Notes: a model not told the origin generated them from the letters alone. DNA of 36,508 bases from Desulfobulbus propionicus (GCA_020722285.1 DYLC01000004.1:1-36508); one strand, 5' to 3'; positions 6,510-22,006 are shown, counted from the stretch's first letter. Translations and numbers: made by a program.

Positions 6510-8504
6510 ATGGATACATCAAAAAGATTTGGAAATAACGGAAATGGTGGTTGTCCGAGCATTCAGTGCGAGTCGAGCCGCAGTGTTTTATGCAGCGACT
6601 GTGCAAGCGGGGTCAGCACCGCAGCCCACAGGGTTGAAGGCCGCGCTACAGAGGCCTGTCTCTTTGGCAAGGGCGGCACATGCTGTCGGAACTGCAACAT
6701 GGGGCCATGTCAGATCATCGAGGGCGTTGAGTCCATGAACGGTATATGCGGCGTGAATGCAGCGACAGTTTCAGCGAGAAATTTCGCCCGCATGGTGGCG
6801 GGCGGGTCTTCCGCCCACATGGATCATGGCCGTGGTGTGGTAGAGGCGTTTATTGCTACTGCAAAGGGCGAGACGCCTTATGAAATTAAAGATTACGTCA
6901 AGCTCAGGGAGACGGCTCAGAGGATCGGAATAGATCCTGCCGACAAGGACAGGAACGATCTCGCCATTGAGGTTGGTGAAAAGTTACAGGCTCAGTTCGG
7001 CCAGCAAAAGGGTTCGCTTTTGATGATGCACAGGGCGCCTGAGGCAAGAAAGGCTGTGTGGGACAAGCTTGACATCTGGCCAAGGGGTATTGACCGGGAG
7101 GTCACAGAGCTGATGCACAGAACTCACATGGGGGTGGATCAGCATCATGAGTCCCTGCTTTTTCAGTCTGCCCGCTGTTCTCTGGCAGACGGCTGGGGCG
7201 CTTCCATGATAGCAACTGAGCTTTCGGACATCATGTTTGGAACGCCTATGCCTGTGCGCACAAGGGTTGACATCGGTGTTTTGAAAAAAGACGAGGTAAA
7301 TGTCACTGTACATGGCCATGAGCCTGTTCTGGCTGAAGCCCTTGCAATGGTTGTTAATTTGCCCGAGATTGTAGCTGCCGCCAAAAAAGTTGGGGCAAAG
7401 GGGGTGAATCTTGCGGGTGTCTGCTGCACAGGAAACGAGGTGTTGATGCGCAGAGGGATTCCGATTGCCGGCAGTTTTATACAGCAGGAAGTGGTGCTTG
7501 CCACAGGGGCTGTGGAGGCCATGGTGGTGGATGTGCAGTGTATCATGGCAGGTGTTTCACCCGTGGCAAAGCAGTTCCATACAGAATTGATCACCACCTC
7601 TAACAGGGCGAAAATCCCTGGGGCAACACATATTCAGTTCGATGAACACAGGGCGCTGGATGTGGCAAAAGAGATAGTGCTCAAGGCAATCTCGCATTTT
7701 CCAGAGCGCGGTAAATATTTTATTCCGAAACATCAGATGGATGTGGTGGCTGGATTCAGTCATGAAACGATTAATTATATGCTTGGAGGGCGTTTCAGGG
7801 GGTCTTACAGGCCATTAAATGACAATATAATGAACGGCAGGATTAAGGGTGTGGCCGCTATTGTAGGTTGCGACAACTACCGCGTGGCTGAAGAGGTGCA
7901 TACGGAGCTTGCCAAGGAATTAATCGCAAATGATGTCCTGGTGGTGGTGACGGGCTGCGCCGCCACCGGTACAGGGCGCGCCGGACTCTTGAGTCCTGAT
8001 GCCATCAGTCAGGCAGGTCCAGGGCTCAGGGAGGTGCTTGAGACAGTGGGCTGTCCGCCTGTGCTTCATATGGGCTCCTGTGTTGACAACAGCCGGATTC
8101 TCATTGCCCTTACTGAAATGGTAAAGACAGGCGGACTTGGCAATGACATCTCAGAACTGCCGGCTATCGGCTGCGCCCCTCAGTGGATGAGTGAAAAGGC
8201 CGTGTCCATCGGGCAGTATTTTGTTTCAAGCGGCGCCATGGTTATTTTTGGCCCTAATTTCCCTACAAGCGGCTCTAAGGTGATGACAGACTATTTATTC
8301 AAGGGTCTGTTGGATATTTATGGCGCTTGCTGGGATGTGGCGCAGGGCGCGAATGAATTTGCAAACAAAATGATAGATGCAATTTATAGGAAACGTCAGG
8401 GGCTTGGCATTGACAAACAGAAAGAGCGTGTGCTATTCGACATGGCGATGAGGCGCGAGCTTCAGACAGGACTGCATGGTGTTGGTTGTCATGGTCCTGT
8501 ATAA
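6510..8504 (+). CDS. cooS: Anaerobic carbon monoxide dehydrogenase catalytic subunit (CooS/AcsA)
   Basis: GGTCCRNCNMGPCQI; HMGVDQHHESLLFQSARCSLADGWGASMIATELSDIMFGTP; MGSCVDNSRI; CAPQWMSEKAVSIGQYFVSSG. Confidence 0.95.
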   Translation: MDTSKRFGNNGNGGCPSIQCESSRSVLCSDCASGVSTAAHRVEGRATEACLFGKGGTCCRNCNMGPCQIIEGVESMNGICGVNAATVSARNFARMVAGGSSAHMDHGRGVVEAFIATAKGETPYEIKDYVKLRETAQRIGIDPADKDRNDLAIEVGEKLQAQFGQQKGSLLMMHRAPEARKAVWDKLDIWPRGIDREVTELMHRTHMGVDQHHESLLFQSARCSLADGWGASMIATELSDIMFGTPMPVRTRVDIGVLKKDEVNVTVHGHEPVLAEALAMVVNLPEIVAAAKKVGAKGVNLAGVCCTGNEVLMRRGIPIAGSFIQQEVVLATGAVEAMVVDVQCIMAGVSPVAKQFHTELITTSNRAKIPGATHIQFDEHRALDVAKEIVLKAISHFPERGKYFIPKHQMDVVAGFSHETINYMLGGRFRGSYRPLNDNIMNGRIKGVAAIVGCDNYRVAEEVHTELAKELIANDVLVVVTGCAATGTGRAGLLSPDAISQAGPGLREVLETVGCPPVLHMGSCVDNSRILIALTEMVKTGGLGNDISELPAIGCAPQWMSEKAVSIGQYFVSSGAMVIFGPNFPTSGSKVMTDYLFKGLLDIYGACWDVAQGANEFANKMIDAIYRKRQGLGIDKQKERVLFDMAMRRELQTGLHGVGCHGPV

Positions 8505-8584: not shown

Positions 8585-11500
8585 ATGGCTGATAAGAGTG
8601 GTTCTGTATTGATCTTGGGTGGTGGTATAGCCGGCATACAGTCTGCGATGGATCTGGCCGAGCTTGGTTATTATGTCTATCTGGTGGAGAAAAAGGCATC
8701 CATCGGCGGCGTGATGGCAAAGCTTGACAAGACCTTTCCGACAAACGACTGCGCTATCTGAATACTCGCACCCAAGCTGGTGGAGGCCGGTCGGTCTCCG
8801 AATATTGAAATACTGACAAATGCAACACTGCATAGTGTTGAAGGAAAGCCTGGCGCTTTCAATGCGCTGGTTCATCAGGAGCCTCGTTATATTGATGAGG
8901 ACAAGTGCACGGCATGCGGTATGTGCAAGATGTATTGCCCGCGGCCTGTGGCGGATTTCTATAATGAGAGCTTAGCTGTCATCCACGCTCCGCGTATTGA
9001 TTACCCTCAGGCAATTCCATCTGCCTATTACATAGATCCAAAGGCGTGTCTGAGGGTAAACTATGAAACCTGTAATCTTTGCGCCCAGACCTGTACTGCA
9101 GGGGCTATAGATTTTTCCCAGAAGCCGAAAGATGTTGAGTTGAACGTAGGGGCAGTGATCCTTGCCCCTGGGTTCGGCAAGATTGACAATCAGGTGTTGT
9201 CTCGTTTCGGCTATGGCAGGTTTCCTGACGTTGTCACAAGCTATGAGATCGAGAGGCTCACATGTGCTTCAGGGCCTTCCGAAGGCCATGTGATCAGGCT
9301 CTCCGATGGCAGGGCGCCAAAAAAGATTGCATTTCTTCAGTGCGTTGGTTCAAGGGATGAGACTTGTGGAAATGGTTATTGCTCTTCTGTTTGCTGCATG
9401 TATGCCTTTAAGGAGGCAGCCATTATCAAGGAGCATGAGCCTGAGGTTGACATCACGTTTTTCTTTATGGATGTGCGCACTCAGGGCAAGGGCTTTGACG
9501 AGGCGCGCAAAAGGGCTGAATCCAAATATAGTTTCAGGGTGGTGCGCGCAAGGGTGCCGAGGGTTGAACAGGTTGACGGCAAGCTTGGGCTTGTGTGGGT
9601 TGATGAAGAAGGCACAAGCAGAAACGAGCTTTTTGACATGGTGGTGCTGTCTGTCGGCCTTGAAGCCCCTGAGGATGCGCATATTATTTCAGCGGCGGCA
9701 GGGTGTGAGCTGAATCATTATGAATTTGCGAAAACAAGCGTACAGAACCCGCTTACAACAACACGTCCCGGTATTTTTACGGCCGGGGCGTTTCAGGGGC
9801 CTAAGGATGTGCCTGAAAGTGTAACCCAGGCTTCTGGCGTGGCAGCCCTTGCATCTGAGCTCCTGGCGGACGCAAGGGGCACGCGGACTGTGACCCTGAC
9901 ATATCCTGAAGAGGACAGGACGCTTTTGGAAGAAGAGCCTCGAATAGGGGTGTTTGTCTGCCATTGCGGTGTCAACATCGCTGGCGTGGTGGATGTGAAG
10001 GCTGTGCGCGACTATGCTGCAACCCTTCCAAATGTGGTTCTGTATGATGATGTGCTTTATTCCTGTTCCCAGGATGCGCTTAAAGGCATTGCCCAGAAGA
10101 TAAAGAACAACAGGCTTAACAGGGTGGTGATAGCAGCCTGTTCACCGAGAACTCATGAGCCACTTTTTCAGGATACATTAAAGAGTGTCGGTGTGAACCC
10201 TGCTCTGTTTGAGATGGCAAATGTCAGGGATCAATGCGCATGGGTGCATGCCCATGAGCCTGAGGCAGCCACTCAGAAATCCAAAGACCTTGTGAGAATG
10301 GCTGTTGCAAAAGCGAGGCTGTTGACACCTTTAGAGAGTCAGACCGTTGGCGTGAATCCCAGGGCATTGGTGATAGGCGGCGGCGGCGCAGGCATGACAG
10401 CGGCGCTTTCTGTTGCAGAGCAAGGGTATGAATGTCTTATAGTGGAAAAAAATGACGTTCTTGGCGGGAATCTTGCCAGACTTAAATGGACGGCTGACGG
10501 TCAGGATGCGCCGAGGATACTCAAGGAGATGATAGACAGGGTCAGGAAGCACCCAAAGATCAAGGTGCTTTTAGGCGCCAAACTTGAGTCTGTTTCAGGT
10601 TACGTTGGTAATTTTGTGTCAACGGTCAAGGTCAAGGAGAAGGTTCAGACGATAGAGCATGGTGTGATCCTGGTGGCCACTGGCGCAAAAGAGTACCGGC
10701 CCAAATCATACCTTTATGGTGAAAATGACAGGGTGATGACCCAGCTTGAGCTGGAAGAGAGGCTTGCAAAAGGCAAGACTTCGCTTAAAAATATCTCGAA
10801 TGTGGTCATGATTCAGTGCGTTGGGAGCCGCGGGGATGACATGCAGCATTGCAGCAGATTGTGCTGTACGCAGGCTGTCAGAAATGCCCTGAAGGTAAAG
10901 GAGCTGAAGCCTGATGCGAATGTATTTGTGCTTTACAGGGACATGCGCACCTATGGTTTTCATGAAGACCTTTACAGCGCGGCAAGAAGGAAAGGAATCA
11001 ATTTTATCAGATACGACCTTGAAAACAGGCCTGAGGTGCTTAAAAACAAGGCATCAGGGTTGACGGTCAGGTTTTTTGACAAGCTGCTTGGTGATACGCT
11101 TGATCTGGATGCAGACCTGGCTGTTTTATCGGTTGGCGTAGAGCCGACGGATAATACAGGGCTTTCAAAGCTTTTGAAGGCCCCACTTACCCAGGATGGA
11201 TTTTTCCTTGAGGCCCATGCCAAGCTCAGACCTGTAGAGGTTGCAGTGGATGGCATTTACCTCTGCGGCCTTGCACATGGCCCCAAGAGTCTCGATGAGA
11301 CAGTGGCTCAGGCAAAGGCTGCCGCTGCAAAGGCGGTTATCCCTCTTGCCAAAGGCAGGGTGAGTGTCACGCCCCTTGTGTCACATGTAGATCAGGGAGT
11401 CTGTATTGGCTGTGGTCTTTGTGAAAGCCTTTGTCCTTACAAGGCGATTGAACTTGTGAAGGTGGACAAGCGCAAAAAGGCGCAGACTATTACTGCTTCC

Positions 11501-11626
11501 TGCAAGGGCTGCGGCATCTGCGCCTCGCACTGTCCTACCCTTGCAATCAGCATGGGAGGCTTTACTGACGAGGCGATATTCGCCCAGATACATGCCTTTG
11601 CTCAACAAGAACAAGAGGTGCGATAG
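8585..11626 (+). CDS. hdrA: HdrA-like double-FAD iron-sulfur protein, selenoprotein (Sec at UGA 8759-8761), ~1013 aa
   Basis: ATG 8585 after [79 protein letters not shown]...; in frame with ORF 8780..11626 (174 nt from start to UGA). Two HdrA-like modules plus C-terminal 2x[4Fe-4S]. Confidence 0.93.
8782..8799 (+). promoter_or_regulatory. Candidate bacterial SECIS hairpin for HdrA
   Basis: GGAGGCC-GGTC-GGTCTCC: 7-bp stem (one G-U), GGUC loop starting ~28 nt after the UGA. Confidence 0.75.
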
Positions 11627-12418
11627 ATGTCTCAGACAAATGAAATGTCTAATGATATAAAAGGGTTTGATCCAAAGATACTTGGTTTTTTCTGCCACTG
11701 GTGCTGTTATGCGGCGGCTGACTCAGCAGGTGTGGCTCGCTATCAATATCCTCCAAACATCAGAACTATCAGGGTGATGTGCACAGGCAGGCTGGATTTC
11801 AGGTTTGTGCTGGAGGCATTTAGGTGTGGTGTGGACGGGGTGTTTACAGGCGGATGACACCTTGGCGAATGTCATTACCAGTCTGGTAATTACGAGGCGA
11901 TGTTGATGGCGGAGACATGCAGGCAGGTACTGAAGGACTGCGGTGTGTCGCCTGAAAGGCTTTCCCTTAAATGGGCTTCCGCTTCTGAAGGTCCAAGGTA
12001 TGTGCAGATGGTCACAGAGTATGTGAGGCATATAAAGACTCTTGGTTCTCTTGGTTCCGCTGAAGGCGAGGCAGGTCAGGATGCGCTTACCCGTCTTGAT
12101 GCAGCAGGCGCTGCCTCTGCTGTGTCCAAGATCCGAACTGCCTATGGCAACATGGCGAAGAAGTTCCATGAGGCCAATAATCCTGATGCATACACCCCTG
12201 AGGCTATGGAGACAGCAGTCAGGGAAAAGGTAATGCCTGGTTTCAGGGAAGAGAGGCTTGGCCAGGAGGTCTTGATGAGACTTGGCGCTGAAGGGATTGC
12301 TGGCTCTCTGTTATGCGGTCTGCTTGGGGCGAAAGAGGACGAGTTTGAAAAGGTCATGACAGGGCTTGTAAAAAAAGGCAAGGTTAAGGCTGAAGGCGAG
12401 ATATTTAAGCCTGCATAA
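11627..12418 (+). CDS. mvhD: MvhD-like (F420-nonreducing hydrogenase iron-sulfur subunit) selenoprotein, Sec at UGA 11855-11857
   Basis: [38 protein letters not shown]...[31 protein letters not shown]; reads in frame to TAA at 12416-12418. Confidence 0.93.
11874..11890 (+). promoter_or_regulatory. Candidate bacterial SECIS hairpin for MvhD
   Basis: ATTACCA-GTC-TGGTAAT, 7-bp perfect stem (AGUCU loop if the last pair opens), ~26 nt after the UGA. Confidence 0.6.
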
Positions 12419-12462
12419 CTGCGTTGAAGTTTATGCGGTTTCAAGGCTTAATTGGGGAAAAG

Positions 12463-13074
12463 ATGCAGATATCCAATATAAACAAAGCGTTTTTAGATGA
12501 ACTGGCGGGTCTTAATGGCTGTTCCACTTTTTCCATGTGTTATGGTTGCGGTTCCTGCAGCAGCGTATGTCCGGTTGAAAAGGTGGTGCCCGAGTTTGAT
12601 CCGCGAAAGATCGTACACATGGTGGGATTGGGCCTTGGGGAAAAACTTGTGGAAAGTGATGTGATCTGGGCTTGTTCACAGTGCCAGAGTTGCATTCCCG
12701 TGTGTCCTCAGGGCGTAAGATGCGCTGATGTGATCAAGGGACTCAGGCAGGAGGCCTCCCTGAAGGGTTTGGCTGACAGTGACAGGCTGTTTTCCTTAGG
12801 GATGTATGCCAGGGTGGATGCCTCCAAATGCGTAGCCTGTCTGACATGTGTAAGGTTGTGTCCGTTTGAGGTCCCTGTCGTTACTAATGAGGGCGCAGCC
12901 TACATTGATCCTGAAAAATGTCAGGCATGTGGCGTTTGTGTGCTGGAGTGTCCTGCTCAGGCAATAGTCCTGCCGTTGTCTTTTGAAAGCAGGGCATTGA
13001 AGGCTGCTGGCACAGGTTGTCCTGCTTGTAAGGCAGGCGAAAGCCCAGATGCAAGGAGTTTGTGCAATGCCTGA
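12463..13074 (+). CDS. HdrC-like [4Fe-4S] protein with additional C-terminal 2x[4Fe-4S] ferredoxin domain (ORF track start 12424)
   Basis: CYGCGSCSSVCPVEKVVPEFDPRKIVHMVGLG...CSQCQSCIPVCPQGV (HdrC-like) then CVACLTCVRLCPFEVP and CQACGVCVLECPAQAI. Confidence 0.82.
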   Translation: MQISNINKAFLDELAGLNGCSTFSMCYGCGSCSSVCPVEKVVPEFDPRKIVHMVGLGLGEKLVESDVIWACSQCQSCIPVCPQGVRCADVIKGLRQEASLKGLADSDRLFSLGMYARVDASKCVACLTCVRLCPFEVPVVTNEGAAYIDPEKCQACGVCVLECPAQAIVLPLSFESRALKAAGTGCPACKAGESPDARSLCNA

Positions 13075-13477
13075 TAAGAAGAAAACAGCAACTGTAAAGG
13101 GGTTTTGCTGCAACTACACAGCGAGGCTTTCAGGGGATGTCCTGTTGGAGATCGGGATTGCCCCTGATGATCTGCAGATTGAGAGGCTTGCCTGCACTGG
13201 CAGGCTTGAGGTTACGGCTGTGCTTGACGCCTTCAGTCAGGGCGCTGAGGCCGTGTTTGTGGCAGGATGCAGGCATGGGAGCTGTCATAACGTAAGCGGC
13301 AGCAAGCGGGCGGCAAAGCGTGTCATTGAGATCAAAAAAACGCTTCAGGAGCTTGGAATTGAGCCGGAACGGGTTGAAATGTTTTTGGTGCCACGGGGTG
13401 AAAGTGAGCCTGTAGTTGCTGCCTATAAAGAGATGGCTGGCAGGATTGACAGGTTTGGGCGTTTTCATAAGGAATAA
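13067..13477 (+). CDS. Second MvhD-like subunit, Cys form (ORF track start 13049)
   Basis: GFCCNYTARLSGD..LQIERLACTGRLEVTAVLDAFSQGAEAVFVAGCRHGSCHNVSGSKRA; AAGGAG upstream of ATG 13067. Confidence 0.85.
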   Translation: MPDKKKTATVKGFCCNYTARLSGDVLLEIGIAPDDLQIERLACTGRLEVTAVLDAFSQGAEAVFVAGCRHGSCHNVSGSKRAAKRVIEIKKTLQELGIEPERVEMFLVPRGESEPVVAAYKEMAGRIDRFGRFHKE

Positions 13478-13599: not shown

Positions 13600-14268
13600 A
13601 TGATTATTGCAGAGCGGAAACCGCTTTCAGAGATATTGGGCATGATCCAAGGGATGCACCGCATCTTAGTGCTGGGCTGTCGCGGCTGTGTGGCGGTCTG
13701 TTCATCCGGCGGTGACAAGGAGGTTGCTGTTTTGGCCTCTGCCCTCAGGCTTGGGGCAGTAAAGGCCGGGTCGGATATGTCGTTTGGCGTACAGACCCTT
13801 GTGCGTCAGTGCGATCCCGAATATCTGGCGCCCCTTGCAGAGATGGCAAAGGGATATGATGCTGTCATCTCCACTGCCTGTGGGGTGGGGGTGAATTTTA
13901 TCGCAGACAGATGCCCAGGAGTCAGGGTGCTGCCAGGGCTTAACACAACCTTTTACGGGGCGAATCTTTCAAGCGGCGAGTGGCGCGAGATGTGCGCTGG
14001 TTGCGGCTCTTGTGTGCTGCATCTTACAGGTGGTCTTTGTCCTGTGGCTCGTTGCGCCAAGGGGTTGTCGAACGGTCCCTGTGGCGGTTCTGTCGGCGGA
14101 AGATGTGAGATTAATCCAGAGACTGCATGCGTATGGCACAGGATACACGATAAACTCACAGACCTCGGAGAGGCCGACAGGCTTATGGATATCATGCCTA
14201 TTAAGGACTGGCGTACAGCCGGTCATGGCGGGCCTCGTAAAAGGATCAGAGAGGAGCTTTTGCCATGA
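13600..14268 (+). CDS. metV: MetV-like zinc-binding methylenetetrahydrofolate reductase partner
   Basis: VLGCRGCVAVCSSGGDKEVAVLASALRL...CAGCGSCVLHLTGGLCPVARCAKGLSNGPCGGS; 4-nt ATGA overlap with metF. Confidence 0.88.
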   Translation: MIIAERKPLSEILGMIQGMHRILVLGCRGCVAVCSSGGDKEVAVLASALRLGAVKAGSDMSFGVQTLVRQCDPEYLAPLAEMAKGYDAVISTACGVGVNFIADRCPGVRVLPGLNTTFYGANLSSGEWREMCAGCGSCVLHLTGGLCPVARCAKGLSNGPCGGSVGGRCEINPETACVWHRIHDKLTDLGEADRLMDIMPIKDWRTAGHGGPRKRIREELLP

Positions 14269-17200
14269 TAAAAGCCGGAAGCAATCTTGAAAATATACTG
14301 ACAAACGGACAGTTTGCCGTAACAGGCGAGCTCGGTCCTCCAAAAAGTGGAAATTACGACGTAGTCAGGGAAAAGGCGCGGATTTTAAAGGGGTATGTGG
14401 ACGCAGCCAACATTACTGACTGCCAGACTGCCATTGTGCGCATGTCAAGCCTGACAGCAGGGCTTATTGCCATGTCAGAGGGTGTTGAGCCTGTAATGCA
14501 GATGACCTGCCGGGACAGAAACCGTATTGCAATCCAGGCTGAGGTGCTTGGGGCAAGTGCCCTTGGCATCAAAAATCTTCTCTGTCTTACAGGTGACCAC
14601 CAGAAGTTTGGGAATCACCCTCAGTCAAAGGGTGTCTTTGACATGGACTCTATCCAGCTTCTTGGCATGATAAGGCAGATGAGGGATGAAAAACGTTTTC
14701 AGTGCGGTGAAGAGATAAAAGAGGCTGAGCCGAGGTTGTTTCTTGGGGCTGCTGCAAATCCATTTGCCGACCCGTTTGAGTATCGTCCTAAAAGACTTGC
14801 CAAAAAGGTGTCGGCTGGTGCGAGTTTTGTTCAGACCCAGATTATCTACAATGTGGAGAAGTTTAAAAAATTTATGGAGATGGTTTGTGACCTTGGACTT
14901 CATGAAAAGGTCTATATCCTTGCAGGAGTCACTCCCCCAAAATCCCTGGGCATGGCGCGTTACATGAAAAATAACGTGCCTGGGCTTGATGTTACGGATG
15001 ATATCATCAAGAGGCTTCAGGGCGCAAAGGATCAGAAGGAAGAAGGGATAAATATCGCTGTTGACATCATTAATCAGGTGCGTGAGATAAAAGGCGTGCA
15101 TGGTGTTCATGTCATGGCCATTGAGTGGGAGCAGGCCGTGCCTGAGATCGTAAAACGGGCAGGGCTTGACAAGCGTCCTGAGATGAAGGGGTTTGAGCCA
15201 AGGCTTGGCGCCAGGGCTGAGATTGAAGATGCTGTAAAAAAAGCGGAACAGGAAAGCGGCAGGCTTGCGCCTGAGATAGACAGGTTGAAAAATGAAGTGA
15301 CCGCCGCAAATGCCATTGCTGTAAAAGAGCAGGACAGGGTCAGTGGGTTGAGCGCTGAAGTTGAGCGGCTTAAAAAAGAGGTGCGCGATACCCAGCTTTC
15401 CATGGAACAGAAGGAAAAAGAGGTTTCAAGGCTCAGAGCAGAGTTGTCTCAGGCAATGTCCGAACTTGAAGCAGTCAAAGCGCAGGCAGCCTCGGGGCAG
15501 AGTATCTTTGTCCAGGAACAGGATGCCTGTGAGACAGATTTTATTTTTGATCCGTCAGGAGGAGATATGACAGCAAGGGATCAGGTTATCCTTAACTCCC
15601 TCACTTTGGGCTTGGAGTCTTTGAGAAAGGCCCTTGGCCTGAATGAAGATCAGTTTGAGGCTATCAAGAGATTTATGGAGGCCCAGTTCGTGATTTCGAC
15701 TGGAGGTCGTCAGTCGCCTGCAGTTTCAGCAGCGCCTGTCACAACTGCAAAGGCTGTGGAGTCAAAGCCTGTGAGGGTTATTGACACTAAGCCTGCACAA
15801 TCAGAAGTTGTGGCAGATGTTGTGGCTCCTTCTATTCAATCGCAGGAAGACCTGCTGCGCAAGGAAGTGGTCAATCTGATTGCCAAGGCCAATGTGGCAA
15901 TGCACAAAAAAGATTACGAAACTGCCCTCAAGACCTTTGAATCTGCCCTTGCCATTGATGCCTCTGATGTAAAGGCTCAGGAGGGGGCAAAGAAAGCCCG
16001 TAATGCTATGGGCACAGTTGCTCAGCCGGCAGTTTCAAGCTTTGCTCTGCCTGCACGGCCTGACGAGATAACGCCTGAGCAGTGGAGCTTCAAGTGGCTG
16101 GTGCGCTATGTCGCCCAAGGGAATGTGGCCTTGTCTGCTGGAGACAAGTCTCGGGCTGTTGAGGCCTTCAGGAAGGCGCTTGCCATTGACAGTAAGGATG
16201 AAAAGGCGGTTGCAGGCCTTAAGAATGCTGAAGCCATGCAAGAGGGCGCTATCAGCCCAAAATCTGAGATGTCAGTGGCTATTCAACCTGAAGCCGTTGC
16301 TCCAAAGTCAGAGCCTGTCCTGGCAGCAGTCAGGTCTGAGGTGCAGCCTGAGGTCAAGGCCAAGCCTGCCATGTCGGCTGTTGAGGCAAAACCCGTGGCA
16401 GTGACATCCGTTGCAGCGCCGGTTTCAGCAGGAGACTTTGAGTTTGCACGCGAAGCTAAAAGCCTGACTGAAAGAGCAGGGGCTATGCCTGCCAACCTCT
16501 TTATTGAGAGGTGTTCTGGTTCCATTAAGCCTGTAACGATTGGAGATGGGGATAAGGCTGTGACAGTGGGGGGAATGAACACCCTGCCGTTTCATCTGTT
16601 TGAGGGCGAAATGGCCAATGCCCCCCGCATTGCCCTGGATGTCCTGGATGTTGCGCCTGAAGACTGGCCGGATTCGCTCGCCAGGCATTATTCTGACGTG
16701 ATAGGGGACCCTGTCAAGTGGGCCCAAAAGAGTGTGAATGAGTACAGCGCAGAGGCGATCTGTTTTTCAATGGTCAGCGCGGATCCGAACGGTTTGAACA
16801 GGCCTGCCAAAGACGTGGCTGCTGTTGCAAAGGCAGTAGTGGATGCGGTGGATGTCCCTGTGATTGTCTGGGGCTGTGGCAATGCGGAGAAGGATACTGA
16901 GCTGTTGAGAGAGCTGACTGGCCTTACAGGCAACAAAAAAGTATGTATTGCACCATTGACTGACGCAAACTACAGGGGTCTTGGCGCTACTGCCATGGCG
17001 CTTCAGATACCTGTGGTTGCCGCGACTCCGATAGATGTCAATCTGGCCAAACAGTTGAATATTCTGCTTGAAAATCTTGGCGTGTCTTTAAGCAGCATAT
17101 TGATGGATACTTCCATCGGCGCTGTGGGATACGGGCTTGAATACACCTATTCAGTAATGGAGCGAATACGTCTTGCAGCCCTTACCCAGCAGGATGAGAA

Positions 17201-17420
17201 GCTTTCAGTGCCGTTTATCTGCAATCTCGGCAGAGAGGTTTGGAAGACCAAGGAGACAAAGCAGCCTTCAAGCGAGCTTCTGGGGGATCAGGAGAGGCGC
17301 GGAATAATGATGGAGGCTGTAACTGCCGCAAGCCTTATGCTTGCCGGTGGTGAATTGATGATTATGAGGCATCCGCAGGCAGTCAGGCTTGCCAAGGCAT
17401 TCATTCAAGGTTTGATGTAA
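14265..17420 (+). CDS. Fusion: methylene-H4F reductase (MetF) - coiled coil - TPR repeats - CODH/ACS corrinoid iron-sulfur protein small subunit (AcsD/CdhD)
   Basis: N-term (~1-310) VTGELGPPKSGNYDVVREKA..LCLTGDHQKFGNHPQSKGVFDMDS (MetF); ~320-410 heptad-like; TPR-like NVAMHKKDYETALKTFESALAIDASDVKAQEGAKKA and GNVALSAGDKSRAVEAFRKALAIDSKDEKAVAGLKNA; C-term (~724-1051) VTVGGMNTLPFHLFEGEMANAPRIALDVLD..VNEYSAEAICFSMVSADPN..GAVGYGLEYTYSVMERIRLAAL (AcsD). Confidence 0.9.
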   Translation: MIKAGSNLENILTNGQFAVTGELGPPKSGNYDVVREKARILKGYVDAANITDCQTAIVRMSSLTAGLIAMSEGVEPVMQMTCRDRNRIAIQAEVLGASALGIKNLLCLTGDHQKFGNHPQSKGVFDMDSIQLLGMIRQMRDEKRFQCGEEIKEAEPRLFLGAAANPFADPFEYRPKRLAKKVSAGASFVQTQIIYNVEKFKKFMEMVCDLGLHEKVYILAGVTPPKSLGMARYMKNNVPGLDVTDDIIKRLQGAKDQKEEGINIAVDIINQVREIKGVHGVHVMAIEWEQAVPEIVKRAGLDKRPEMKGFEPRLGARAEIEDAVKKAEQESGRLAPEIDRLKNEVTAANAIAVKEQDRVSGLSAEVERLKKEVRDTQLSMEQKEKEVSRLRAELSQAMSELEAVKAQAASGQSIFVQEQDACETDFIFDPSGGDMTARDQVILNSLTLGLESLRKALGLNEDQFEAIKRFMEAQFVISTGGRQSPAVSAAPVTTAKAVESKPVRVIDTKPAQSEVVADVVAPSIQSQEDLLRKEVVNLIAKANVAMHKKDYETALKTFESALAIDASDVKAQEGAKKARNAMGTVAQPAVSSFALPARPDEITPEQWSFKWLVRYVAQGNVALSAGDKSRAVEAFRKALAIDSKDEKAVAGLKNAEAMQEGAISPKSEMSVAIQPEAVAPKSEPVLAAVRSEVQPEVKAKPAMSAVEAKPVAVTSVAAPVSAGDFEFAREAKSLTERAGAMPANLFIERCSGSIKPVTIGDGDKAVTVGGMNTLPFHLFEGEMANAPRIALDVLDVAPEDWPDSLARHYSDVIGDPVKWAQKSVNEYSAEAICFSMVSADPNGLNRPAKDVAAVAKAVVDAVDVPVIVWGCGNAEKDTELLRELTGLTGNKKVCIAPLTDANYRGLGATAMALQIPVVAATPIDVNLAKQLNILLENLGVSLSSILMDTSIGAVGYGLEYTYSVMERIRLAALTQQDEKLSVPFICNLGREVWKTKETKQPSSELLGDQERRGIMMEAVTAASLMLAGGELMIMRHPQAVRLAKAFIQGLM
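15556..15569 (+). promoter_or_regulatory. Putative internal ribosome-binding site and ATG inside metF::acsD (ATG 15567)
   Basis: CAGGAGGAGATATG, AGGAGG Shine-Dalgarno with ATG in frame (codon 435). Confidence 0.5.
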
Positions 17421-17433
17421 AGGAGTAGTAACG

Positions 17434-19638
17434 ATGTCCAAGATAATTTGTTCTGCCGCAATTAGAGGCGCACACAAGATAGTTGACATGGCTGAGGAGC
17501 GTTTTGAGGCTGCCTTGAAGAAATATGGGCCTGAACAGGCTGTGGCGTTTCCGAATACCGCCTATTACCTGCCGATTATCTACAGCATACTCGGTGCGCC
17601 TGTGAAACAGCTTGGGGATATGAAGGACATATTTCAGGAGTGCAGAAGGCTTCTTCCTCCTCATGTCACAGACAGGAATTGGCTTCCATACCTTGCCCCT
17701 GCCTTGGATGCGGGCATGGCTACTTTCTTTGCAGAAGAGATGTTTGAAGCCATCAGATACATAGAAGACCCTGATTTTTACACCAAGACAGAGGACCCGC
17801 CTGAGGGGAAGATATGGCTTGGCGCTGCTGATGACGTGATCTTCAGAAAGCGCGGAGTTGAGTTCGTTGACGGCACTGCCCCCGGGTTTGCAGCCATTTT
17901 AGGCACACCCGCCGACCCTGAGATGGCGGCCAAGATTGCCATTGAGCTTCAGGAGAAAAATCTTTACATCTTCATGCATGAGCAGACAAACGGCCTGAAC
18001 ATGCCCGAGCAGCTTATGAAGCAGAAGGTGCAGCTCGGCTGGTCAACCCGTCTTGTCTCATTTGGACCTACCTATACGTCTGCTGTGTTTGCCATAGGTT
18101 TTGCCTGTCGTGTTGCTATGGCATTCGGAGGCATAAAGCCAGGGGATTACAAAGGCAATCTTATCTATAACAAAGACAGAACATTTGCGTTTGTCATGGC
18201 GTTTGGTCCTGTTTCAGATGAGTGGTATGCCAATGCTGCTGGGGCGATCAACTGGGGCTTCCCAACTATTTCTGACTGGGATATTCCGCAGGTGCTTCCA
18301 ACAGGTATCTGCACATACGAGCATGTTGTAAGTCAGGTGCCTCATGAGGAGATTGTGCAGCGAGCTATTGAGGTGCGTGGGCTTAAGGTGTCTGTCACTA
18401 AGATTGACATCCCAATGTCTTATGGTCCGGCATTTGAGGGTGAGAGGATCAGGAAAGACGACCTTTATATGGAGTGTGGCGGTGGTCGCACTATGGCAGT
18501 TGAGCTTTTGGTTTCAAAGGATATGGATGAGGTACAGGATGGGCTTGTGATCGTTGAAGGTCCTGAGACAACAGATTGTAAGTTGGGTGCGAAGCTACCT
18601 CTTGCCATACTTGTGGAGGTGGCAGGACGCGGTATGCAGTCTGACTTTGAGCCGATACTTGAGCGTCAGTTCCACCACCTTATCAACTACATTCAGGGCA
18701 TTATGCATGTCGGTCAGCGAAATATTATGTGGGTCAGAATCGGCAAGCAGGCGATTGAAAAAGGTTTCAAGTTTGAGCATATCGGCAGGGTGTTGCATGG
18801 CAAGCTCCATCAGGAGTTTGGGGCGATTGTGGACAAGGTGCAGGTCAAAATATACACGATCCAAGAAAAAGTTCAGGAGGTTATGAACCTTGCAAAGGGT
18901 GTTTATGCCGCCCGCGACGAGCGTCTTGGCGCTATGACTGATGATACTGAGGATACGTTCTACTCATGCACACTGTGTCAGTCTTTTGCCCCAAGCCACG
19001 TCTGTGTCATCTCCCCTGAGCGAATTGGCATGTGTGGCGCTTACAACTGGTTAGATGGCAAGGCTTCTTATGAGATCAACCCGACAGGACCAAATCAGCC
19101 GATTCAGAAGGGTAATGTAGTTGACCCTGTGACAGGTCAATACGAGGGCATCAATGCCTATGCCATGAAGGCGTCTCGTGGCAAGGTGGAGAGGGTTAGC
19201 CTTTATAGTCTCATGGTGGATCCTATGACTGCATGTGGCTGTTTTGAGTGTATTGTAACGCTTCTGCCTATGTGCAATGGCGTTATGATAGTCAACCGCG
19301 ACTACATGGGCATGACCCCAAGCGGCATGAAGTTTACGACCCTTGCAGGCATGGCTGGTGGCGGAAACGTGACGCCTGGCATGATGGGCGTGTCAAAGCA
19401 CTACATTGGCAGCCGGAAATTTTTAAAGGCTGAAGGCGGCCTGAAGCGTCTCGTATGGCTGCCGAAGATGCTCAAGGAAGAATTGAGAGAGAAACTTGCT
19501 GTCAGGGCTGAGGAAGAAGGGGTCGCCAACATGCTGGACATGATTGCAGATGAGGATGTTGGCACTACAGAGGATGTAGTTCTTGCGTTTTTGCAGGAAA
19601 AGGGACATCCTGCCCTTAATATGGAGTCTGTGGTTTAG
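17434..19638 (+). CDS. acsB: Acetyl-CoA synthase (CODH/ACS alpha subunit)
   Basis: AAIRGAHKIVDMAEERFEAALKKYGPEQAVAFPNTAYYLPIIYS; A-cluster region CTLCQSFAPSHVCVISPERIGMCGAYNW...CGCFECIV. Confidence 0.96.
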   Translation: MSKIICSAAIRGAHKIVDMAEERFEAALKKYGPEQAVAFPNTAYYLPIIYSILGAPVKQLGDMKDIFQECRRLLPPHVTDRNWLPYLAPALDAGMATFFAEEMFEAIRYIEDPDFYTKTEDPPEGKIWLGAADDVIFRKRGVEFVDGTAPGFAAILGTPADPEMAAKIAIELQEKNLYIFMHEQTNGLNMPEQLMKQKVQLGWSTRLVSFGPTYTSAVFAIGFACRVAMAFGGIKPGDYKGNLIYNKDRTFAFVMAFGPVSDEWYANAAGAINWGFPTISDWDIPQVLPTGICTYEHVVSQVPHEEIVQRAIEVRGLKVSVTKIDIPMSYGPAFEGERIRKDDLYMECGGGRTMAVELLVSKDMDEVQDGLVIVEGPETTDCKLGAKLPLAILVEVAGRGMQSDFEPILERQFHHLINYIQGIMHVGQRNIMWVRIGKQAIEKGFKFEHIGRVLHGKLHQEFGAIVDKVQVKIYTIQEKVQEVMNLAKGVYAARDERLGAMTDDTEDTFYSCTLCQSFAPSHVCVISPERIGMCGAYNWLDGKASYEINPTGPNQPIQKGNVVDPVTGQYEGINAYAMKASRGKVERVSLYSLMVDPMTACGCFECIVTLLPMCNGVMIVNRDYMGMTPSGMKFTTLAGMAGGGNVTPGMMGVSKHYIGSRKFLKAEGGLKRLVWLPKMLKEELREKLAVRAEEEGVANMLDMIADEDVGTTEDVVLAFLQEKGHPALNMESVV

Positions 19639-19763: not shown

Positions 19764-21107
19764 ATGGCGCTTACTGGAATTCAGATAATGAAGATGCTTC
19801 CCAAGAAAAACTGTGGGGAGTGTCAGGTACCCACCTGTCTGGCTTTTGCCATGAAGGTTGCGGCAGGTCAGACTGAGATAGGTCTTTGCCCTTACGTATC
19901 AGAGGAGGTTAAGGCGCAGGTGAGTGAGGCGTCGGCTCCTCCCATCCGCACTATATCTTTTGGCGGAGGGTTTAAAATGGGTGGAGAGACCTGTCTGTAC
20001 AGGCATGAAAGGCGGTTTGAAAACCCTACCGGTATTGCCGTACTTGTGAGGACAGATATGTCCGATGATGCCATAGGAGGCAGGCTTGCCCGTTTCAATT
20101 CCCTCCGGTATGAACGTGTAGGGCTGATACTTAAGGCGGATCTGATTGCTGTTCAGGATGCAGGACAGGGCGAGGCGGCATTTACCTCATTGGTGAAAAG
20201 GGTGCGTGACAATTGCCCTGATGCTGGCATTATTGTTATGAGCATGGATATTGCTGCGGTCAGCGCCGGAGCAAAGGTCTGTGGTGATTACAAGCCTCTG
20301 TTGTATGCAGCCACTCTATCTAATGCCGAGGCAATGGCTGGGCTTGCCAAAGAGCTTGGATGTCCTCTTGCAGTCAAGGGAGAAACCCTTGGCGAGGCGG
20401 CCTCAATAGTGGAAAAATTGCAGGCAGGTGGTCTGAAGGATATGGTGATAGATTCTGGAGCGCGTACTCTCAGGGCGTCGCTGGAGGATCAGATTGCCAT
20501 GCGCAGGGCTGCCATCAAGCATAAATACAAGCCGGTAGGCTTTCCAAGCATAGTGCCTGTATGTGAGATGGCGAATGATCTGATGCTTGAATCTCTTATA
20601 GCCACATCCATGATAGCCAAGTACGCCGGTATAATTATTTTGTCTGATCTGCAGGGTGACACCCTGTTTCCTCTGTTGCTTGAGCGTTTGAATATTTTTA
20701 CTGATCCTCAAAGGCCGATGGTGGTGCAGGAGGATGTATATCCGATAAACGGTCCTCAGTCAGAGTCTCCAGTGATTATCACATGCAATTTTTCTCTGAC
20801 ATATTTTATTGTTTCAGGTGAAGTAGAGGGCAGCAAGGTGCCTTCCTGGCTCCTTATCAAGGATACGGAGGGGTTGTCTGTGTTGACTGCATGGGCTGCC
20901 GGGAAGTTTGGGGCGGATTCTATCAGTGGTTTTGTCAAGAAGTCTGGCATTACAGACAAGGTAAAACATCGCAATCTGATTATCCCCGGTTATCTCGCCT
21001 CCATCAAGGGGGAGCTTGAGGAAGAGTTGTCTGACTGGAAGATCATGGTAGGCCCAAGGGAAGCAAGCCATCTGCCGTCATACCTAAGAGATTGGAGACC
21101 TAATTAG
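19764..21107 (+). CDS. acsC: CODH/ACS corrinoid iron-sulfur protein large subunit
   Basis: TGIQIMKMLPKKNCGECQVPTCLAFAMKVAAGQTEIGLCPYVSEEVK. Confidence 0.95.
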   Translation: MALTGIQIMKMLPKKNCGECQVPTCLAFAMKVAAGQTEIGLCPYVSEEVKAQVSEASAPPIRTISFGGGFKMGGETCLYRHERRFENPTGIAVLVRTDMSDDAIGGRLARFNSLRYERVGLILKADLIAVQDAGQGEAAFTSLVKRVRDNCPDAGIIVMSMDIAAVSAGAKVCGDYKPLLYAATLSNAEAMAGLAKELGCPLAVKGETLGEAASIVEKLQAGGLKDMVIDSGARTLRASLEDQIAMRRAAIKHKYKPVGFPSIVPVCEMANDLMLESLIATSMIAKYAGIIILSDLQGDTLFPLLLERLNIFTDPQRPMVVQEDVYPINGPQSESPVIITCNFSLTYFIVSGEVEGSKVPSWLLIKDTEGLSVLTAWAAGKFGADSISGFVKKSGITDKVKHRNLIIPGYLASIKGELEEELSDWKIMVGPREASHLPSYLRDWRPN

Positions 21108-21115
21108 GAGGAAGC

Positions 21116-22006
21116 ATGTACGTACAATGTATAGCTGAAAGCATAAATATAATGGGGGCGCGCACTGGAAAGGCAATGAAGGCCAGAGATCCAGGGCCTA
21201 TCCAGCAGATGGCCAATGAAGAGGCGGCAAATGGCGGAGATTTTCTGGATCTTAACATCGGTCCTTCCAAAAAGGACGGCACTAACCTTATGCCGTGGAT
21301 TGTCAGGACAGTTCAGGAGGTCACTGATTGCCCATTAAGTCTTGACACGACCAATGCTGACGCCCTTATCGCCGGGATCAAGGCCTGCAAAAATTCTGAG
21401 CGGAATTTGATGAATTCCATCTCCTTGCAACCTGAGCGTATGAAAAAGCTCATACCTGTGGCGGCTGAAGCAGGTTGTTATGTGATTGCGCTTTTGTGGG
21501 GCGTGGAGGGCATGCCAAGGGATTCCAACGAACGCGCTGCAATGACAGTTGATCTGGTGGCTGCTCTTAATGAGGCTGGTATTCCCAATGAGAAGATATT
21601 GGTCGATCCCATCGCCACTCCGATTACCCTTGGTTCACAACAGGTGATGAGCGGTCTGGATTTTATGGTCATGCTTTCGGAGATAGCGCCAGGATCCAAG
21701 TCCACTGTTGGCCTTTCAAATGTCTCAAACGGCGTTGCGACGGAAAAGAGGCATTATCTGAACAGGGCGTATCTTGCGATGCTCATGAAGGGCGGGATAT
21801 GGTCTGCCATCGTAGATGCCTATGACGAGGAGCTTATCAAGCTGGCCCATGGCGAACTGCCAAACCTTGTAAAGGTTGTTCATGATATTATGGATGACAA
21901 TGAGCCGAATCCAAAAGACCTGACACCAAAGGAGCTTGAGTATTACAAAACCACAAGGGTTTTGATGGGTAAGACTATCTTTTCTGAATCCTGGCTGGAG
22001 CTGTAA
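21116..22006 (+). CDS. acsE: Methyl-H4F:corrinoid iron-sulfur protein methyltransferase
   Basis: AESINIMGARTGKAMKARDPGPIQQMANEEAANGGDFLDLNIGPSKKDG; DTTNADALIAGI; pterin-binding fold motifs. Confidence 0.93.
   Translation: MYVQCIAESINIMGARTGKAMKARDPGPIQQMANEEAANGGDFLDLNIGPSKKDGTNLMPWIVRTVQEVTDCPLSLDTTNADALIAGIKACKNSERNLMNSISLQPERMKKLIPVAAEAGCYVIALLWGVEGMPRDSNERAAMTVDLVAALNEAGIPNEKILVDPIATPITLGSQQVMSGLDFMVMLSEIAPGSKSTVGLSNVSNGVATEKRHYLNRAYLAMLMKGGIWSAIVDAYDEELIKLAHGELPNLVKVVHDIMDDNEPNPKDLTPKELEYYKTTRVLMGKTIFSESWLEL

Follow-up and report, generated by a model that had tools for sequence, protein, structure and literature searches.

Why are the methylene-H4F reductase (MetF) and the small subunit of the corrinoid iron-sulfur protein (AcsD) of the Wood-Ljungdahl pathway, an ancient route of CO2 fixation, encoded here as one polypeptide, and what could the long segment between them do? 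The gene in question, metF::acsD, lies on the + strand at 14265-17420 of the window (the whole stretch of 36,508 nucleotides that was analysed). It starts with ATG and runs through a single unbroken frame of 1051 codons (1051 aa), as a preliminary description of this DNA had read it. From the frame, Pfam and a search of its own genome, its layout is a MetF part (residues 1-~300), a linker of ~440 residues and an AcsD part (~743-1051).

Both ends are what they had first seemed to be. The N-terminal domain (residues 1-300; 14265-15164, +) is a methylene-H4F reductase of the MetVF type: the Pfam family MTHFR (PF02219) matches residues 8-300, i.e. the full domain (E 2.4e-36; 126 bits versus a cut-off of 24), and Foldseek finds the Thermus MTHFR 7th5 (TMt 0.82). 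Two acidic motif residues, E22 and D111, show no variation across 42 fusions; D111 falls on the GD motif in an alignment with human MTHFR, E22 being assigned by motif alone. In MTHFR of E. coli the catalytic acidic residues are Glu28 and Asp120. The C-terminal domain (residues 743-1051; 16491-17417, +) is matched by CdhD (PF03599) at residues 757-1035 (E 1.1e-35; 123.6 bits versus 24.8), and by the NCBIfam model of the delta subunit of acetyl-CoA decarbonylase/synthase (NF003376, 364.8 bits versus 280). It scores 312.4 bits with WLP_AcsD (NF040759), below the curated cut-off of 430, which places it outside the set named by that model. Its fold is that of the small subunit of the corrinoid iron-sulfur protein (2h9a_B, TMt 0.94). 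It resembles the known AcsD/CdhD structures 2h9a, 4djd and 9fzy by its size of ~300 residues, by an identity of 41-45% (Foldseek) and by TMt values of 0.90-0.94, and differs from them by its N-terminal tether and MetF domain. AlphaFold2, run with the 42-sequence alignment, models both folds confidently; the overall pTM is low (0.43), as would be expected for domains on a leash.

No separate acsD or metF had been noticed beside the fusion. Its own genome (1.69 Mb, 90% complete) indeed has no other AcsD, and its one further MetF-like gene is distant (28% identity, contig C25). The latter (G000 contig C25:18197-18949; L002, L187) belongs to a 502-aa frame that also has a MetV match near its C-terminus. 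The fusion is again the only MetF of the pathway type in each of 15 other genomes that carry it, some of which are one-contig; their remaining MetF-like genes share 27-34% identity and lie in frames of ~500-915 aa.

An assembly error or a frameshift was considered and rejected, as the fusion is present in many genomes, including one-contig genomes and that of an isolate. The preliminary description had named a break of the frame in the linker as a possible refutation; on the contrary, the intact frame recurs across genomes, homologues of the same architecture were found by genome searches across the window's order and two further classes, and the suggested domain search detected MTHFR, TPR and CdhD. 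In 60 whole genomes (its own and 59 relatives), full-length fused frames extend across the window's order, mostly at 59-64% identity, while genomes of the same phylum outside this order gave separate matches. Nearly every member of the order whose gene was readable whole has the fusion. A scan of contigs added Deltaproteobacteria MAGs including SeepSRB2; the isolate Thermodesulfatator autotrophicus S606, Thermosulfurimonas and Caldimicrobium; and, for Desulfobulbales, Desulfocapsa and the cable bacteria Ca. Electrothrix. The fusion thus occurs, with several one-contig genomes, in Thermodesulfobacteria, in Desulfobulbales and in the window's order, which is probably Dissulfuribacterales, since the SeepSRB2 locus L054 is among its rows of the AcsD tree and Seep-SRB2 has been placed in Dissulfuribacterales (PMC10553843). 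AcsD is present in 261 of the 396 genomes of the phylum, and AcsD frames of >700 aa belong to the window's order and to families resembling Desulfobulbales and Thermodesulfobacteria (a length criterion, the MetF half being checked in some). Beyond the phylum, none of 163 genomes with AcsD has a frame of fusion length (0/41 in a Chloroflexota sample, 0/122 in a Bacillota sample, labels inferred from the central loci), and other-phylum genomes reached through loci have no long AcsD frame. The MetF-AcsD fusion is a real, old and conserved arrangement, shared by a large group of sulfur bacteria with an autotrophic life.

How did it arise? In an AcsD tree that includes 72 distinct fused sequences, a branch of support 100 gathers on one side all fused rows, the split L141/L142, L105, which is truncated by the end of its contig, and L087. 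The MetF tree agrees (support 90), with one separate MetF, L176, inside. Both trees fit a single origin from adjacent genes, followed by at least two splits or losses. In L149, L176 and L099-L104 metF and acsD are separate neighbouring genes, ordered as in the fusion; L149 and L176 also have metV upstream and acsB-acsC downstream and differ from the window in having two genes. Their gene order suggests a fusion of neighbours. In L141 and L142 (G144, G373) metF and acsD are separate and AcsD retains the linker helix and the LSERA motif, which gives them the look of later splits. In L087 the MetF part has been lost. In those lineages, then, the covalent linkage is dispensable.

These observations bear on a rival explanation, that a fusion of adjacent co-transcribed genes was fixed by accident; it would ensure at most that MetF and AcsD are made in the same quantity, and the linker would be a tolerated spacer. 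The unfused neighbours in the same order, the splits, and a linker that varies in sequence and in length (103 to 462 aa across fusions) all agree with it. However, the retention of the fusion across three classes and many families, the purifying selection on the linker and its conserved hairpin make us regard such an accident as rather improbable.

The constraint on the linker is visible in close pairs: its dN/dS is 0.06-0.39 and its dS is, in most pairs, broadly similar to that of the domains; therefore the linker is translated and constrained. Two independent structure models (the window protein and that of Electrothrix) predict an anatomy that combines flexible segments with rigid spacers. 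After MetF, AlphaFold2 predicts a single helix at residues 317-403 (15213-15473, +), a heptad coiled coil whose 3.5-residue periodicity exceeds that of all 5000 shuffles and whose a/d positions are 80% hydrophobic versus 37% overall. A helical hairpin follows at 437-479 (15573-15701, +; helices 437-457 and 461-479), which has no Pfam match, then two three-helix TPR-like units at 527-583 (15843-16013, +; pLDDT >90 over most) and 604-657 (16074-16235, +; pLDDT about 88-97), with Pfam matches around 538-573 and 615-644 (TPR_2: 33.7 bits versus a cut-off of 27). An Ala/Pro/Lys/Val-rich tether (662-723; 16248-16433, +; pLDDT <50) leads to an L-x-E-R-A-x-x-x-P motif (~734-742; 16464-16490, +), seen in the alignment of fusions directly N-terminal of AcsD. 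The disordered joints are predicted at 401-434, 480-525, 585-592 and 662-723. The heptad-rich segment, the two TPR-like repeats and the Ala/Pro/Lys/Val-rich linker, all picked out at first sight, are thus confirmed in the window protein.

Across the fusions these elements are unequally kept. Most orthologues have only a weak coiled coil. TPR_2 is recognised in about 26 of the 42 fusions: the repeats are present in the window's order, where they are conserved, and in some Thermodesulfobacteria; they are not evident in Desulfobulbales linkers, and the modelled Electrothrix protein has an Ala/Lys-rich helix of ~100 residues and no TPRs. The 44-residue hairpin (consensus ALxSxxxGLxALRKALGLxEDQFEALxxFxEAEF) is common to the window's order and Desulfobulbales, most Thermodesulfobacteria having one amphipathic helix at this position instead. 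In the L-x-E-R motif R737 is invariant, and the motif persists in the split AcsDs L141/L142. What is kept is therefore a helical element, flexible segments and the L-x-E-R motif, and not the TPRs and the coiled coil. A profile of the hairpin searched against ten genomes gave no convincing match beyond the fusions themselves. A similarity of the hairpin to PDB 3ugm (E 1.8e-13) was rejected as an artefact of repeats or composition, no stretch passing alone.

Long disordered joints might also be expected of a precursor whose linker is cleaved to release MetF and AcsD as two proteins, and the splits indicate that the separate proteins function. Against this, the conserved elements of the linker are helical, and no conserved motif resembling a cleavage site was noticed on inspection of the linker alignments; we hold such processing to be very improbable.

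The surroundings of the gene suggest which partners the chain could meet. On the + strand, upstream, are cooS/acsA for the catalytic subunit of CO dehydrogenase (6510-8504), hdrA (8585-11626, start approximate), a mvhD-like gene (11627-12418), a gene for an HdrC-like Fe-S protein (12424-13074), a further mvhD-like (FlpD) gene (13049-13477) and metV (13600-14268, PF12225), whose end overlaps the start of the fusion by 4 nt, as reported initially. Downstream are acsB for acetyl-CoA synthase (17434-19638), acsC for the large subunit of the corrinoid iron-sulfur protein (19764-21107) and an acsE-like gene for the methyl-H4F:corrinoid protein methyltransferase (21116-22006). This cluster recalls the type IV MTHFR of Moorella thermoacetica, MetVF-HdrCBA-MvhD (PMC8760232), by the position of metV directly upstream of MetF and by the presence of hdrA, hdrC and mvhD. 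It differs by the fusion of MetF to AcsD, by hdrB, not recognised among the genes examined, and by in-frame TGA codons in hdrA (8759) and in the first mvhD-like gene (11855, GG*HLGECHY). Together with that of fdhA (24496, CARV*HAP), these TGAs look like selenocysteine sites from their sequence context; a search for tRNA-Sec in the own genome (90% complete) gave no match over the cut-off, the two best places being other tRNAs.

Two further explanations concern these neighbours. The coiled coil and TPRs could be docking sites for AcsE, MetV or the Hdr module, as had been put forward initially: TPRs are typical protein-binding repeats, here confidently modelled and conserved within the window's order, and all candidate partners share one gene cluster in the window. 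Alternatively, the tether could serve electron delivery, holding the corrinoid protein near the iron-sulfur clusters of MetV and Hdr for the re-reduction of inactive Co(II); MetV, HdrA, HdrC and two MvhD-like proteins are encoded beside the fusion, in the manner of type IV clusters. Yet in four Desulfobulbales genomes metV, mvhD and hdrC stand at a distant locus devoid of MetF and acsE is outside the fusion locus (in L183-L186, from G232, G185, G366 and G253, a metV-mvhD-hdrC cluster lacks MetF and the only MetF of the pathway type is the distant fusion). That these bacteria keep the fusion with such genes elsewhere speaks against a recruitment of their products by the linker; with the patchy TPRs and the weak coiled coil outside the window protein, it makes docking unlikely in our view. 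Electron delivery we judge no more probable: the unlinked metV, mvhD and hdrC count against it as well, although products of unlinked genes can still form one complex.

We favour, at about even chances, the reading that two enzymes are made here as one tethered polypeptide, its linker being a leash that holds the corrinoid protein, via AcsD, near MetF. The MetF domain with MetV, and probably with the neighbouring HdrA, HdrC and MvhD, would produce 5-methyl-H4F, and the AcsD domain would make up the corrinoid iron-sulfur protein together with AcsC. Partly disordered and partly helical, the long leash would keep the methyl acceptor locally more concentrated near MetF, and the AcsC/AcsD unit could still move to AcsE and next to AcsB. 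The chain may dimerise through its coiled coil in the window's lineage, and perhaps through the conserved hairpin as well, which would match the dimeric MetVF (a dimer of heterodimers in C. ljungdahlii, PMC8760232). The assembly of a complex, the dimerisation and a possible kinetic gain are what we infer from this arrangement.

The leash is favoured by the deep conservation, single origin and flexible linker anatomy, by the status of the fusion as sole MetF of the pathway type, by the persistence of a helical element in an otherwise changing linker, by a linker dN/dS well below 1 and by the recurrent tethering of AcsD described below. It has against it that AcsE, which is outside the chain, and not MetF, hands the methyl to the corrinoid protein, and that the splits show channelling by the fusion not to be indispensable. 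Of the scaffold originally proposed, the placing of MetF near the methyl acceptor is supported by the same conservation, origin and flexibility, and the recruitment of AcsE, MetV or Hdr by coiled coil and TPRs is not supported. More tentatively, and with somewhat less confidence than in the leash itself, the chain that arose once and is now in three classes may form an assembly of leashed carriers, where the hairpin is a module for oligomerisation or docking and the methyl branch works as one complex. Multienzyme complexes such as pyruvate dehydrogenase have flexible carrier arms on their E2 component, and the likeness, in that a protein of carrier type sits on an extended linker rich in Ala and Pro, is an analogy only, with no sequence relation.

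The natural covalent joining of the reductase to the corrinoid carrier makes substrate channelling in the Wood-Ljungdahl pathway directly testable, in groups to which belong an isolate, cable bacteria and bacterial partners of archaea that oxidise methane, and where the fusion may also affect the annotation of MTHFR genes. In the open-access literature we found no description of a covalent MetF-AcsD joining, and where papers deal with members of these groups, their lists of MTHFR and acs genes leave a fusion unmentioned. The genome paper of Thermosulfurimonas dismutans lists the MTHFR genes of the pathway and does not mention a fusion (PMC4911364), and a paper on Dissulfurimicrobium hydrothermale gives MTHFR loci located outside the acs cluster (PMC8780430).

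AcsD is also tethered elsewhere. An AcsD-CooS fusion of 1123 aa (L144:4316-7684, G074 contig C113), one of the long AcsD frames of the phylum, joins AcsD to a pathway enzyme through an Ala/Pro-rich linker, possibly with a short helix, like the window protein; AcsD is here N-terminal, its partner is CO dehydrogenase, and in the AcsD tree its origin is separate from that of MetF-AcsD. With the AcsD tails of other genomes, this suggests that the tethering of AcsD recurs. Such tails, C-terminal and of ~200 residues, occur in other Desulfobacterota (L150, L151, L154, L156 and L157) and consist of an Ala/Pro/Lys linker and a KAEAEAKA-type helix; in L150, L151, L154 and L157 they finish with a short amphipathic end and cooS lies downstream. 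The tail is possibly a docking arm.
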